NCBI GenBank assembly: GCA_003222555.1
Contig: QHWL01000300.1
Span: 1 to 11,241 of the forward strand
DNA from: Acidobacteriota bacterium
GTDB taxonomy: Bacteria; Acidobacteriota; Vicinamibacteria; Vicinamibacterales; CAVVIG01
DNA length: 11,241 bases
Direction: 5' to 3'
The notes beneath the pieces are model-generated. The model ran no database searches and was not told where the DNA came from. It saw only the letters and a list, made by a program, of their open reading frames with translations. The position numbers and the translations under genes were made by a program. Shown in pieces: positions 5,310 to 11,241 of this stretch (position 1 is the stretch's first letter; the number at the start of each line of letters is the position of its first letter).

Positions 5310-5321
5310 TTGTCCCCACGC

Positions 5322-6548
5322 ATGAAACCTGGGACGACCAAGACGAAGTGGAAGGCGATCGCCTGCGCGCTTGCGCTGTGCGGGAGCGTCCCGGCGCGCG
5401 CCCAGACGCTGCCCTCCGAACCCATCGTCTTTGCCGACGGCCGGGTCACGTTCGGCGGCGACGTCTCGGCGTCCTTCGCGCCCAAAGATACGGGCTATTT
5501 CAACTACACGGACTACCAGCATTCGGCGCTCCGGCTGCTGCGCATCGACTTCACGGGATCGCTCAAAGCGGGCGACCATCTCGCGGTGCTCGGAGAAGTG
5601 CGAAGCGAAAACGTCGGGAGCCCGCGGCCCTACGCACTATTCCTTCGGATCCGGCCGTGGACGGCGCGGCAGTTCGACATTCAGGTCGGCCGGGTGCCGC
5701 CCACCTTCGGCGCCTTCGCGCGGCGCACGTATGCGGCCGACAATCCGCTCATCGGCTACCCGCTTGCCTATCAGTACCTGACGTCGCTTCGTCCCGACTC
5801 GCTACCTGGCAGCGCTGACGAGCTGTTGAGAATGCGCGGCCGGGGATGGCTGTCGAGCTTCTCGCTCGCCAACCCGACGCCCGACCACGGCCTGCCGGTC
5901 GCGAGCGCATTCAGCTGGGACACCGGCGTGCAGATGCACGTGACGAGCGACTTCATCGAGGCGACGGCGTCGGTGACGGCCGGTACGATCTCCGATCCGC
6001 TCGTCACCGATGACAATTCCGGAAAACAGATCGCCGGCCGCGTGGCCGTCCGCCCGATCGTAGGCCTCATTTTGGGCGCGTCGGCGGCCCGCGGACCGTT
6101 CCTGACCGAGACGGCGTCGCAGAGCGCGATGGGCGAGGGTCGCAACGGCGATTTCACGCAGACCGCGTGGGGCGGCGACCTCGAATACTCGCGCGGCTAC
6201 TATCTCGTGCGGTTCGAGACGATCGTCAGCGACTGGACCGTGCCGGCCGTGAGGGCTCCGCTGATTGACGGACCGCTCCGCGCGCTGGCGACTTCGGTCG
6301 AAGGCCGGTACAAGATCGCTCCCGGTCTCTACGCGGCCGCCCGCCTCGATCATCTCGGGTTCAGCGAGATCGTCGGCACGGCCAGGCGCGACACGTGGGA
6401 CGCGCCGGTCACCCGGCTCGAGATCGGTGGCGGCTACTCCATCCAGCGAAATCTCATTTTCAAGGTCTCCTACCAACACAACACGCGCGAGGGCGGTCGC
6501 GTGCGGACGTTGAACCTGCCAGCGGCGCAGCTTGTGTTCTGGTTTTGA
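5322..6548 (+). CDS. Outer-membrane beta-barrel (porin-like) protein
   Basis: This 408-residue protein starts with a signal peptide: basic MKPGTTKTKWK, hydrophobic AIACALALCGSV, and a likely cleavage after ARA before QTLPSEP. The mature part alternates polar and hydrophobic residues with repeated amphipathic strands such as LRIDFTGSLKAGDHLAVLGEVRSE, FDIQVGRVPPTFG, YYLVRFETIVSDW and LIFKVSYQHN. It ends in Val-Phe-Trp-Phe, and a C-terminal Phe is the classic outer-membrane barrel targeting signal. I see no recognised motif for a named porin family. ATG 5322 is preferred over the in-frame TTG 5310, which lies next to the TATAAT box. It is the first gene of a run with the cupredoxin-like gene, kinase and regulator. 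It may be a channel or a cell-surface anchor; substrate unknown. Confidence 0.72.
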   Translation: MKPGTTKTKWKAIACALALCGSVPARAQTLPSEPIVFADGRVTFGGDVSASFAPKDTGYFNYTDYQHSALRLLRIDFTGSLKAGDHLAVLGEVRSENVGSPRPYALFLRIRPWTARQFDIQVGRVPPTFGAFARRTYAADNPLIGYPLAYQYLTSLRPDSLPGSADELLRMRGRGWLSSFSLANPTPDHGLPVASAFSWDTGVQMHVTSDFIEATASVTAGTISDPLVTDDNSGKQIAGRVAVRPIVGLILGASAARGPFLTETASQSAMGEGRNGDFTQTAWGGDLEYSRGYYLVRFETIVSDWTVPAVRAPLIDGPLRALATSVEGRYKIAPGLYAAARLDHLGFSEIVGTARRDTWDAPVTRLEIGGGYSIQRNLIFKVSYQHNTREGGRVRTLNLPAAQLVFWF

Positions 6549-6557
6549 TGGAAACTC

Positions 6558-6667
6558 AAAGGACACAAAGGGGACGAAGGACACAAAGGAGCAGGCCTGT
6601 GCGAGCGCTGCTCCTGTCTGTTGCTTCGCTTGTTTCCTTCGTGTCCTTCGTGCCCTTGGTGTCCTTT
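6558..6667. repeat. Long imperfect palindrome with 9-bp internal repeats
   Basis: A left arm (6558-6590) and a right arm (6635-6667) of 33 nt pair at 30 of 33 positions around a 44-nt loop. Within the left arm a 9-bp unit repeats three times (GGACACAAA, GGGGACGAA, GGACACAAA). The loop contains a second perfect stem, GGAGCAG (6588-6594) with CTGCTCC (6608-6614). I recall similar GGACACAAAGG-type palindromes scattered in environmental bacterial genomes, but copy number cannot be checked here. It begins just after the porin-like stop, and the right arm lies inside the next gene's signal peptide. Confidence 0.75.
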
Positions 6668-7288
6668 TTCCCACCCGCCGGGGTCCTGGCCGCTGGGGGT
6701 GGGACGATTCGCGGCCGCGTGGAGCTTCGCCGCGTCGCGCCGCCCGTCGAGCGCCGCCCGACCGTGTCGGAGCTCGGCGCGCCGGCCGCGCGCGATGTGT
6801 CGGACCGCCTGCGATCGGTCGTCTATCTGGAGTCGGCGCCACGGGGCGCCTTCGAGCAGAGCCGCCCGGGCCGCGCGGTGCTCAACCAGCGCGAGGAGCG
6901 TTTCGTTCCGCACGTGCTGGCGATCACGGCCGGGACGATCGTGGATTTCCCCAACAGCGATCGCATCTATCACAACGTGTTCTCGCTCTCGAAAGCCGCC
7001 CGGTTCGATCTCGGCCGATACGCCGCGGGCCACTCGGAGTCGCGCCGCTTCGATCAGCCCGGCATCGTGCGCGTGTTTTGCGACATCCACTCGCACATGA
7101 ACGCGTTCGTCCTCGTGTTCAGTCATCCCTTTTTCGCGGTCACCGACGACGAGGGACGCTATCGCATCGAGAACGTGCCGGCGGGCACCTACAGCGTCAT
7201 CGCCTGGAACGAAGGCGTCTCGTCCGAGCCGAGGCCGGCGACGATTTCCGATGGCGGAGCCGCCGAACTGGACTTCACGCTGCGATGA
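6599..7288 (+). CDS. Secreted cupredoxin (plastocyanin-like) protein with regulatory-like C-terminal domain
   Basis: This 229-residue exported protein probably binds one type-1 copper and carries electrons. The start GTG 6599 is preferred: AAGGAG (6586-6591) lies 7 nt upstream and it yields a normal signal peptide (MRALLLSVASLVSFVSF..., likely cut near LAAGGG). An ATG at 6548 overlapping the porin stop (TGATG) would prepend 17 Arg/Gln-rich residues. The cupredoxin part has VLAITAGTIVDFPNSDRIYHNVF with candidate ligand His125, then FCDIHSHMNAFV with Cys161, His164 (or His166) and Met167, a His-Cys-His-Met set. The tail (VTDDEGRYRIENVPAGTYSVIAWNE, about 181-205) is the signature of a carboxypeptidase regulatory-like beta-sandwich. 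Its stop overlaps the kinase start by 4 bp (ATGA). Family call good; partner not known. Confidence 0.8.
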   Translation: MRALLLSVASLVSFVSFVPLVSFFPPAGVLAAGGGTIRGRVELRRVAPPVERRPTVSELGAPAARDVSDRLRSVVYLESAPRGAFEQSRPGRAVLNQREERFVPHVLAITAGTIVDFPNSDRIYHNVFSLSKAARFDLGRYAAGHSESRRFDQPGIVRVFCDIHSHMNAFVLVFSHPFFAVTDDEGRYRIENVPAGTYSVIAWNEGVSSEPRPATISDGGAAELDFTLR

Positions 7289-9120
7289 CGCTCCTCTCCT
7301 CGCTGCGGGGCCGGATCTTTCTCGCGAGCGCGCTGCTTGCGGTCCTGTCGATTGGCGTCGCCATCTATCTCGTCAACGTCCGCGTGACGAACGAAGCCGA
7401 AGGCGCGCTGCAGCGCGAGATTCTCTCGACCGGCGCCCTCGTCGACCAGCTCCGCGCGACCCGCACGCAAACGTTCACGGTCATGGCCCGGCTCATCGCC
7501 GACCTGCCCAAGCTCAAAGCCGCCGTCGAAACCGACGACCCGCCAACCGTTCAAGACATCGCGGTCGGCTATCAGGAGCAGCTCAAGTCGCTATCAGGAC
7601 CAGCTCAAGTCGAACCTCTTGCTCATCCAGAACGGCTCGGGCCAGGTGCTCGCCACCGTCGGCCCATCTCCGCGCGCCGCGAAGCGGGTCGCGGACCAGC
7701 CGGCCGTTGGTGAGGCGCTCGGCGGCCTGGAGAGGGTGAGCCTGCTGCCGCAGCCCGACGGCATCCTGCAGGTGGTGACCGTGCCGATCGCGATTGGACT
7801 CACGCAGCCGCAAATGCTCGGCACGCTCAGCGTCGGCTTTCTGCTCGATGATGTGTTCGCCTCCCAGCTCAAGGCAATCACCGGCAGCGACATCGCCTTC
7901 GGTATGGAGGGTCGAATTCTGGCGGCCACGCGGCCGCGCGAGGATTACGCCGCCCTGGCGGATCGACTGCACACGAGCGGCATCTCGACCGTCAAGCTCG
8001 GGGCGCAGGAGTACCTGGCGCTGCCGCGGCCGCTGGCGTCCATCGAGGGCCCGACGACAGGTGGTGGCGCGGTGGCCCTCATTCTGCGCTCGCGCACCGA
8101 GCAGCTGCAGCTTCTCGAGGCCATCCACACAGGGCTGGCGGCAACGGCTGTCTTCGCCGTGCTCCTCGCAACCCTTCTCAGCTTCGCCGTGGCGCGGACG
8201 ATCACGCGCCCGCTGGCGGCCATTACCGACGTGATGCGCGAGGTCGCGGCGACCGGCGACCTCACGAGGAAGATTGCCGTGCGGGAGGCACGGCGCTGGG
8301 AAGACGAAGACGCGCGGCTCCTGGCCACGACGTTCAACACGCTGACCGATTCGATCGCGCGGTTTCAGCGCGAGATGTCGCAGAAAGAGCGCCTGTCGTC
8401 GCTCGGCCGGCTGTCGACCGTCATCGCGCACGAAGTACGGAACCCGCTGATGATCATCAAGGCGTCGCTTCACACGCTCGGTCGGCCTGACGTGAGCCCG
8501 GCGGCCATTGGCGACGCCGTCGCCGACATCGACGACGAAGTGGCGCGTCTGAACCGGATCGTCAACGAAGTGCTCGACTTCGCGCGTCCGATTCGCTTCG
8601 AGCTCGTGCCGACCGATGTCAACGCCCTCTGCCGCGAATCGGCGGCCGCGTCGCAGGCCACGGTCCCAGGTCCGCCGGTCCAATTCGATCTCGATCCCGC
8701 CGCGCCAGTCCTCAACACCGATCCCGAGCGGTTGCGCATCGCGCTCGTGAACATGCTCGTCAACGCCCGGCATGCGGTGAACGCCGCACACGGCGCAGCA
8801 GGGCGGATCCTTCCGGCCCCGCCGGAACTTTCCGACCCGAGGGAGCCGCTCATCTCCCTGAAGACGCGCGCGAATGCGAGCCACGTGACGATCGTCATCG
8901 CCGACCGCGGCGTCGGCATCGACGCGGCCGACCTGCCCCGCGTGTTCGATCCCTACTTCACGACCAAGCGTGGAGGCACCGGCCTCGGCCTCGCCATCGC
9001 CAAGAACATCGTCGAGGGCCTGAGCGGCACCCTTGCTGTCGCGAGCACGCCGGGGCGCGGCACGGAGATCCGCATCGACCTGTCGACCACATCCGTCGCG
9101 GGGGCCGACCGGCGCCGCTA

Positions 9121-9121
<1 letters not shown>
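7285..9121 (+). CDS. Membrane sensor histidine kinase, frame broken by a 22-bp tandem duplication
   Basis: ATG 7285 overlaps the cupredoxin stop. The frame is good to about 7590, where a duplicated 22-bp unit shifts it by +1; the remainder continues in the other frame to TAA at 9119-9121. With one copy removed the protein is 604 residues and reads smoothly through VGYQEQLKSNLLLIQNGSG. Order: TM1 (about 8-30), an extracytoplasmic sensor of about 240 residues resembling Cache-type sensors, TM2 (about 276-298), HAMP (about 298-350), HisKA with phosphoacceptor His375 in IAHEVRNPL, then HATPase_c with NMLVNARHAV (Asn482/Asn486), DRGVGI (Asp533), FDPYFTTK and GTGLGLAIA. All catalytic boxes are intact. 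This is the NtrB/AtoS-like class that pairs with sigma-54 regulators, and the next gene is one. As written, only a truncated sensor or, from an internal start such as TTG 7619, a kinase lacking TM1 could be made. The signal sensed is unknown; neighbours hint at redox or copper. Confidence 0.88.
7569..7612 (+). repeat. 22-bp near-perfect tandem duplication breaking the kinase frame
   Basis: Positions 7569-7590 and 7591-7612 are 22-bp copies beginning CTATCAGGA and ending CAGCTCAAGTCG, differing only at the tenth base (G in copy 1, C in copy 2). Copy 1 encodes YQEQLKS and copy 2 would encode YQDQLKS. The insertion adds 22 bp (one modulo three). Confidence 0.95.
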
Positions 9122-10494
<1,373 letters not shown>

Positions 10495-10519
10495 CGGTCC
10501 AAACAGATTTCACCTCCCA

Positions 10520-10553
10520 TTACGCGAACCGTAACGACTTACCGCCCCGGTAA
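10520..10553. promoter_or_regulatory. Two tandem 15-bp palindromes, probable enhancer sites for the NtrC-type regulator
   Basis: Site 1 (10520-10534) reads TTACG-CGAAC-CGTAA. Site 2 (10539-10553) reads TTACC-GCCCC-GGTAA. Both are perfect in their 5-bp arms with a 5-bp spacer and share TTACS-N5-SGTAA. Their centres are 19 bp apart, so they lie on nearly the same face of the helix. They sit about 60-80 bp upstream of the sigma-54 -24 element, right for an enhancer-binding protein. Which protein binds is inferred from adjacency. Confidence 0.65.
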
Positions 10554-10605
10554 TTTCGGTCACGGCAATCCCCTGGAATTCACGGCCGGATGTGTGTTGG
10601 AATGT

Positions 10606-10620
10606 TGGCACCTTGGTTGC
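10606..10620 (+). promoter_or_regulatory. Sigma-54 (RpoN) promoter upstream of the cytochrome gene
   Basis: TGGCAC (10606-10611), a 5-bp spacer CTTGG, and TTGC (10617-10620) match the -24/-12 consensus exactly, including the GG and GC at the invariant positions. Transcription would begin about 12 bp beyond the -12 element, near 10631, leaving an untranslated leader of about 19 nt containing the AAAGGAGG ribosome binding site at 10638-10645. Confidence 0.85.
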
Positions 10621-10649
10621 CTCGGCGCGGGCGAACTAAAGGAGGTTCG

Positions 10650-11127
10650 ATGCGTATTCGCGTGCTTCTGTTGTTGCTCCTGGCGGGGCTCACCGCCACG
10701 GCCTGTGATGAAAGCCTCTCGAAGTTGGCTGGGCCCACGCCCAATCTGGAGCCGACCTTCGCCAGCGTGCAGAGGGAGATCTTCGAAACCACCGACGCGG
10801 CGGGACGAGTCGCTCGAATCCACCGACACGGCGGGACGAGTCGCTTGCGTCAACTGCCACACGAGTACGGGCCGCAATCCGTCAGCCGGCATGAACCTGA
10901 ATCACGATGTGGCCTACGATCAGATCGTCAACGTGTCGAGCTCGAGAAAGCCGGGAGCGATACGCGTGATTCCCGGCGATCCGGAGAACAGCTATCTCGT
11001 TCACAAGATCGAAGGACTGTCCGACATCGTCGGCGTCCGGATGCCCTTTAGCGGGCCGCCGTACCTGACCGACGGCCAGATTCTGATTCTCAAGCGCTGG
11101 ATCGCGAACGGCGCGCCTCGCAACTAA
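10650..11127 (+). CDS. Lipoprotein mono-haem cytochrome c, frame broken by a 31-bp tandem duplication
   Basis: ATG 10650 follows AAAGGAGG at 4 nt. The N-terminus MRIRVLLLLLLAGLTATAC is a lipoprotein signal with lipidated Cys19. A 31-bp tandem duplication at 10784-10845 then shifts the frame by +1. With one copy removed the protein is 148 residues: after FASVQREIFETTDAAGRVA comes the haem c motif CVNCH (Cys56, Cys59, His60), and a candidate axial Met in VRMPFSGP. The C-terminus DGQILILKRWIANGAPRN is typical of small cytochrome c domains. It would be a periplasm-facing, lipid-anchored electron carrier. As written, translation from the proper start gives a protein without the haem site. It is the first gene after the sigma-54 promoter, and the next gene follows after 17 bp. 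Confidence 0.85.
10784..10845 (+). repeat. 31-bp near-perfect tandem duplication breaking the cytochrome frame
   Basis: Positions 10784-10814 and 10815-10845 are 31-bp copies that match at 29 positions, differing at base 5 (A/T) and base 14 (G/A). Copy 1 encodes ETTDAAG and copy 2 ESTDTAG in the corresponding frame. The insertion adds 31 bp (one modulo three) just before the haem motif. Confidence 0.95.
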
Positions 11128-11144: not shown

Positions 11145-11241
11145 GTGAGACGTTCATTGACGATTCATGTACTGGCCGCGCTCGCCGCGGTCCTCATGTC
11201 AGCGTCTGTCGTTGTCGCGCAGGATGAAGACGATGCGGTGC
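11145..11241 (+). CDS. Exported protein, 5' end only
   Basis: GTG 11145 is preceded by AAAGGAG (11133-11139) with a 5-nt gap. The overlapping ATG at 11143 is followed at once by TGA and cannot be the start. The 32 codons seen give a signal peptide (MRRSLTIHVLAALAAVLMSA, cleavage probably after VVVA before QDEDDAV) and then an acidic mature N-terminus. It begins 17 bp after the cytochrome stop, so it is probably its operon partner under the same sigma-54 promoter. Too little is visible to name a family; an outer-membrane barrel protein would be a plausible guess but is not shown. Confidence 0.7.
   Translation, partial: MRRSLTIHVLAALAAVLMSASVVVAQDEDDAV

Follow-up and report, generated by a model that had tools for sequence, protein, structure and literature searches.

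A predicted sigma-54-dependent regulon of exported redox proteins with helically phased palindromes in an acidobacterial class

In the stretch of DNA analysed here (the window, 11,241 nucleotides that make up a whole contig of an Acidobacteriota bacterium), the gene for an NtrC-type response regulator is followed by two palindromes and a consensus sigma-54 promoter. This element is very probably the enhancer and sigma-54 promoter of a small regulon, with the NtrC-type regulator acting on the putative twin sites. As NtrC-type activators and sigma-54 are known, the regulon would be new and its kind familiar. On balance we also favour a broader reading, in which an undescribed two-component system, widespread in the class, drives an extracytoplasmic electron-transfer regulon, with cytochromes, cupredoxins, CuA-like proteins, barrels and quinone-type polyketides under one palindrome, and in which selection holds the distance between palindrome and promoter to whole helical turns. 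As far as our searches show, both regulon and motif are new: TTACS-N5-SGTAA gave no match in published text (motifs shown in figures alone would escape such a search), and the literature searched yielded neither a described sigma-54 regulon for this mostly uncultured soil group nor a paper on DUF5777 barrels.

Results

Enhancer palindromes, promoter and leader in the window

The first predicted upstream activator site, TTACGCGAACCGTAA (TTACG-CGAAC-CGTAA, 10520..10534, + strand), and the second, TTACCGCCCCGGTAA (TTACC-GCCCC-GGTAA, 10539..10553, + strand), are perfect 5-bp inverted repeats placed directly after a stop codon. An earlier note on this DNA had described twin palindromes 19 bp apart, and this description is exact when the figure is taken as the start-to-start distance, which equals the centre-to-centre distance; the actual gap is 4 bp. 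The pattern TTACSN5SGTAA occurs twice in the window and in none of 200 dinucleotide shuffles, and across the organism's own genome (4.79 Mb, 82% complete) it is found solely at these two places, against 8 places for the backwards pattern. Together with the reversed-pattern control in relatives given below, these counts rule out a chance origin of the palindromes.

The consensus TGGCAC-N5-TTGC promoter named in the same note was located by a window search at 10606..10620 (+ strand) as TGGCACCTTGGTTGC (TGGCAC-CTTGG-TTGC), without mismatch and with the GG and GC dinucleotides of the -24 and -12 elements at their fixed spacing; the letters around the searched promoter core were examined across 103 such promoters. 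Since shuffles of the window average 0.61 promoter matches at one mismatch or fewer, the match alone is modest evidence. The end of the second site lies 53 bp from the GG of the -24 element, the commonest distance class among relatives. With the usual sigma-54 numbering, which we take to apply here, transcription would start at about 10632 and the centres of the two sites would fall at about -105 and -86. A Shine-Dalgarno sequence, AAAGGAGG (10638..10645, + strand), can be read directly ahead of an ATG at 10650, and a profile search identified a sigma-54 gene in the organism's own genome (PF04552, 219.6 bits, G000:C147).

Genes of the locus

The regulator gene (9121..10494, + strand) encodes a receiver, an AAA+ domain and a Fis-type helix-turn-helix (PF00072, PF00158 and PF02954, over cut-off), and the GAFTGA loop is seen in its translation. 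Its best NCBIfam matches are to the AtoC, NtrC and ZraR families, with scores of 456.7, 417 and 395 bits that fall below the curated cut-offs of 714, 558.6 and 760, which rules it out as an equivalog of any of the three; among the best 25 of 107 matches no NCBIfam cut-off was passed. The adjoining sensor histidine kinase gene (7285..9121, + strand) is frameshifted in its sensor domain by a 22-bp imperfect tandem duplication with 1 difference (7568-7611), and the open frame 7619-9121 carries HAMP, HisKA and HATPase domains.

Behind the leader, a gene does begin at the ATG where the earlier note had placed a cytochrome gene (10650..11127, + strand), predicted to encode a monohaem cytochrome c-like lipoprotein; it is, contrary to that description, frameshifted by a 31-bp imperfect tandem duplication with 2 differences (10783..10844, + strand). 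The ATG frame stops at 11051 without a CxxCH motif, which lies instead in the frame ending at 11127. The counterpart in the related locus L035 is an open frame whose match to PSCyt1 is weak (E 0.0011) and falls short of the Pfam cut-off, followed there by a DUF5777 gene (E 6.5e-31). At the same place the window holds the GTG start of a DUF5777-type outer-membrane barrel gene (11145..11241, + strand), named by eye from relatives and cut by the contig end. Because the relatives' kinase frames and the L035 cytochrome frame are open at these places, the 22- and 31-bp duplications are likely an assembly artefact from mixed strains; possibly they are real.

Upstream in the same cluster lie a gene for a protein with a carboxypeptidase-regulatory-like domain (6539..7288, + strand) and one for a protein that has no Pfam match and is porin-like by eye (5310..6548, + strand), at whose place open reading frames of 405-467 aa are found in 6 relatives. 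The start of the 6539-7288 gene contains two short arrays, of CAAAGGACA and TCCTTCGTG (6557-6590 and 6635-6666), which by eye are roughly reverse complements of one another.

Regulator orthologues and the sites behind them

The regulator was searched for in 198 related genomes, and reading of the match list gave an orthologue in 86, at 62-93% identity. Three genomes (G015, G046 and G049) carry extra copies at 62-72% identity; fragments and extra copies aside, the other matches reach at most 52% among those listed. We took 93 loci, 5 of them as paralogue controls; with the window, 89 orthologue loci met our limits, and the 85 that have at least 100 bp downstream form the count. A perfect TTACN7GTAA lies within about 230 bp downstream at 57 of these 85 loci, GGCAYN5TTGC within 300 bp at 59, and both at 52, and the conservation beside orthologues that the earlier note had asked for is thus borne out. 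The pairing seen in the window recurs: a partner with at least 6 of the 8 core letters was found at exactly +19 in 22 cases and -19 in 17, and few pairs are spaced otherwise (four at 20 bp, two at 22 bp and four single cases).

Among the 28 loci without a perfect site, 9 retain a site with 7 of 8 letters and 19 do not. In the window's own family, 19 usable loci from 18 genomes divide into 9 with a perfect site, 3 with a 7-of-8 site and 7 with neither, one of the last being the second copy in G015. At L038, L041 and L071 (and, by eye, L033 and L042) a cupredoxin-like gene lies directly behind the regulator instead.

The recognition helix ISQRALSYYL is kept with few changes in the 86 orthologues. 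The five paralogues (L121-L125) have an unlike, MSFRSFRYYV-like helix, and no palindrome was found downstream of any of them within up to 400 bp (just 166 bp at L122). Four of these five sister-clade loci have a TGGC-N7-TTGC promoter downstream, and their regions show by eye TGTCA/TGACA-like boxes in place of the TTAC palindrome.

In nine relatives, the promoter is followed by varying sets drawn from three kinds of gene, which encode a CxxCH lipoprotein or CuA-like cupredoxin, a barrel and a cupredoxin-like lipoprotein. By eye, the barrel is present in all nine (DUF5777 was confirmed by Pfam in the two scanned) and the cupredoxin-like lipoprotein in seven.

A composite pattern across genomes

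Allowing up to 2 mismatches, the twin pattern occurs in 80 of the 198 genomes, at about 137 places against 27 for its reverse, and often distant from the regulator. Forty twin sites were chosen as distal from the printed part of the match list, and on one side of half of them (20/40) a strict promoter lies no more than 160 bp away; the background of the promoter string is 29 in 2.32 Mb with both strands counted, which amounts to 0.002 per 160 bp. When no more than 1 mismatch is allowed in the twin site, the strict promoter is present in 15 of 23. One site, L156, later seen beside a regulator fragment, is counted among these 40 and among the 47 distal distances considered below.

We then defined a composite pattern as a perfect palindrome followed, after 38-68 bp, by GGCAYN5TTGC. 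It gives 79 matches in 51 of the 198 genomes, the reversed control giving a single match; the 79 matches correspond to 74 distinct promoters, five being reached from both sites of a pair. Forty-four of the 51 composite-bearing genomes are among the 86 with an orthologue, and a 45th, G103, has the C-terminus of an orthologue beside the site, so that the composite is found in 45 of 87 genomes with the regulator and 6 of 111 without (Fisher p 5e-14); the strict composite is absent from 42 of the 87. The six genomes in which the composite stands without a detected orthologue (G067, G089, G099, G106, G176 and G188) may be explained by gaps in the assemblies, by chance or by another regulator that shares the motif.

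Over 396 genomes of the phylum, the composite is present in 15 of the 46 that belong to the class. Outside it, 350 genomes give 9 matches against 7 for the reversed control, which is at chance level; the signal is therefore confined to the class, and a spread of the pattern beyond it is not supported. Among the best 80 of 511 named relatives of the regulator, 27 are 68-93% identical and the other 53 at most 48%. The records of the 27 bear the title Acidobacteria (several with gp6 or Vicinamibacterales) or that of a phylum member, bar two: the orthologues L229 (81%) and L238 (71%) come from records labelled Bifidobacterium breve and Acidimicrobiia MAGs, which are probably misnamed acidobacterial bins.

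Helical phasing of the palindrome and promoter

The collected loci contain 134 distinct promoters, and upstream of 105 of them a perfect palindrome lies within 160 bp. Distance was measured between the -24 element and the proximal site, for which the 19-bp downstream partner was used wherever it had at least 5 of the 8 core letters and matched better than its upstream counterpart, a rule that may sharpen the phasing. The distances gather in groups at 40-44, 50-55, 62-67 and 73-76 bp, and then at 83 bp. Between 38 and 78 bp, 89 of 95 distances fall within 2.5 bp of 42.5, 53, 63.5 or 74, positions that were set after seeing the data; the remaining six measure 47, 50 (two), 57 and 67 (two). Ten distances exceed 78 bp; 83 (three), 114 and 117 fit a 10.5-bp series and 88, 98, 100, 101 and 102 do not.

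For all 105 distances the Rayleigh R is 0.62 at 10.5 bp, a value reached by none of 20000 smoothed nulls, with a formal significance that is inflated because sites from related genomes are not independent. Periods of 10 to 11.5 bp fit about equally well. The 47 distances from distal loci give an R of 0.58, again higher than any of the nulls, with 40 of 42 in phase, and the same distance classes recur at unrelated target genes; the 53 bp of the window belongs to one of the phased classes. At most promoters, the spacing appears to preserve a constant rotational setting of palindrome and promoter around the helix.

Target genes

Our unedited target set comprises 42 first genes from 57 promoters, 14 promoters having no called gene and 1 having failed a reading check; by reading, 8 of the 42 adjoin the regulator. 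The families found, in categories that may overlap, are DUF5777 (10), Cupredoxin_1 (8), COX2 (5), Copper-bind (5) and CHRD (4), followed by GSDH, galactose-oxidase-like, type III polyketide synthase and PSCyt1 (2 each). As background we drew 80 of 269 proteins encoded at the same loci, a set in which some regulators, and probably also downstream genes of target operons, remain. It contains 4 DUF5777 and 4 Cupredoxin_1 proteins, and CHRD, COX2 and Copper-bind do not appear in the best 25 of its 105 families, a list whose final entries have 2 members. A handful of first genes fall outside the target families, with one each of DUF503, lactamase-type, radical SAM and CDP-alcohol transferase, and part of the sites may therefore be chance matches. 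Other candidate targets are YceI and TIGR03118 proteins, the latter with just a weak promoter.

Judged by family, the predicted targets share a theme of exported redox and copper-type proteins, and the cupredoxins, CuA-like proteins and cytochromes among them fit the 'redox-related' system that the earlier note had in mind. At two loci, L126 (G181) and L131 (G167), genes for a type III polyketide synthase and a methyltransferase stand behind perfect twin palindromes and a sigma-54 promoter, with an FAD oxidoreductase gene also behind them at L131; such an operon suggests a quinone-like product.

Discussion

We propose the following mechanism for the element. The dCache_3-type kinase (7285-9121) would detect a signal outside the cytoplasm and phosphorylate the NtrC-type regulator (9121-10494), dimers of which would then bind both TTACS-N5-SGTAA palindromes. 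With its position fixed to one face of the helix, the bound hexamer would contact by looping the sigma-54 polymerase about five turns downstream and remodel it, so that transcription starts near 10632. The product of the operon would be a set of exported redox proteins, namely the cytochrome and the DUF5777 barrel and, in relatives, a cupredoxin lipoprotein in addition. In related species the same sites elsewhere may drive cupredoxins, CuA-like, CHRD, YceI, sorbosone-dehydrogenase-like and galactose-oxidase-like proteins, and also the type III polyketide synthase operon. Binding of the palindromes by the regulator is supported, at the level of sequence, by their co-occurrence, the 19-bp pairing, the helical phasing and the regulator's own recognition helix. 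Gene order suggests that the regulator responds to the adjacent kinase, and we infer likewise that regulation is by activation and what the targets do.

It is conceivable, though we think it unlikely, that this is a copper-responsive system of the CorSR type, in which the kinase senses copper and the targets handle it. Many of the targets are cupredoxins, CuA-like or copper-oxidase-like, and the M. xanthus CorSR pair, as described in the part of PMC3707914 available to us, likewise joins a HAMP/HisKA/HATPase kinase to a receiver/sigma-54 AAA+/HTH_8 regulator that drives a cupredoxin and copper-oxidase operon, with adjoining exported redox proteins that include a Cupredoxin_1 protein and a cytochrome-type protein. 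For CorSR, copper is the signal and the operon encodes CopA together with a multicopper oxidase (PMC3707914), whereas the system described here has a dCache_3 sensor, cytochrome, DUF5777 and cupredoxin targets, and further predicted targets in trans; neither 'palindrom' nor 'binding site' occurs in the main text of PMC3707914. The dCache_3 domain was assigned by Pfam in the kinase of L034, and over 81 loci the start Met is the sole His, Cys or Met among the first 300 residues of the kinase to reach 70% conservation. With no conserved metal ligand there, direct sensing of metal by the kinase is unlikely and copper sensing is unsupported, a small organic ligand or a redox partner being the more likely signal. 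Moreover, the best 25 of 32 families among the 42 first genes include no copper ATPase or multicopper oxidase, and none was recognised among the genes of the window, whose operon is cut by the contig end, or the relatives' operon genes scanned. We know of no copper role for CHRD, DUF5777 or polyketide synthase proteins.

Less probable still is that the palindromes serve some other regulator, be it a second NtrC-type protein or a repressor, and that the neighbouring regulator is a bystander. This would account for the 28 of 85 orthologue loci that have no perfect site next door, for the six motif-bearing genomes that show no orthologue and for the 42 of 87 regulator-bearing genomes that do not have the strict composite. 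It sits poorly with the strong association between composite and orthologue, and 8 of the 19 site-less loci belong to genomes that have the composite elsewhere (G008, G013, G042, G078, G150, G152, G180 and G186); furthermore, the one other clade checked (L121-L125) has both a different helix and no such palindrome downstream. The idea that the inverted repeats are RNA hairpins, as part of a terminator or leader structure, has next to no credibility, since perfect 5-bp repeats immediately past a stop codon might invite it but the repeats also occur distant from the regulator, half of the 40 distal twins precede a strict promoter, the repeat-promoter distance is phased, one palindrome at L089 sits between two divergent promoters and, in the window, the repeats are not followed by a long T-run; position and phasing rule it out.

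The enhancer and sigma-54 promoter that we favour can be compared with two further known systems. The sigma-54-dependent regulators of Desulfovibrio vulgaris are also NtrC-type response regulators (PMC4641369, PMC3333781); in the parts of these sources seen by us, their sites are mostly palindromic, with arms of 4-6 bp that are 3-8 bp apart (PMC3333781), and most of their regulons comprise one to four operons (PMC4641369). TTAC/GTAA strings are absent from the main text of both papers, where motifs are given in figures and a similar logo is possible. The Klebsiella nifLA promoter, activated by NtrC, resembles the present element in having two activator sites and a dependence on the face of the helix (Minchin 1989, cited in PMC7408454); that face-of-the-helix dependence is, in the portion of PMC7408454 that we consulted, reported for one promoter, whereas here phasing emerges from about 100 natural promoters.

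The analysis offers an assignment of regulator to motif to target for a mostly uncultured soil group, and finding DUF5777 barrels, CHRD proteins and cupredoxins under one switch would provide a handle on their function. The phased distances form a natural data set on the constraints of enhancer and sigma-54 promoter geometry and, if our reading is true, about a hundred natural promoters would be a ready-made test of activator-promoter phasing. At L089, about 630-810 bp past the stop codon of the regulator, one palindrome stands between divergent sigma-54 promoters at distances of 53 and 74 bp, both in phase.
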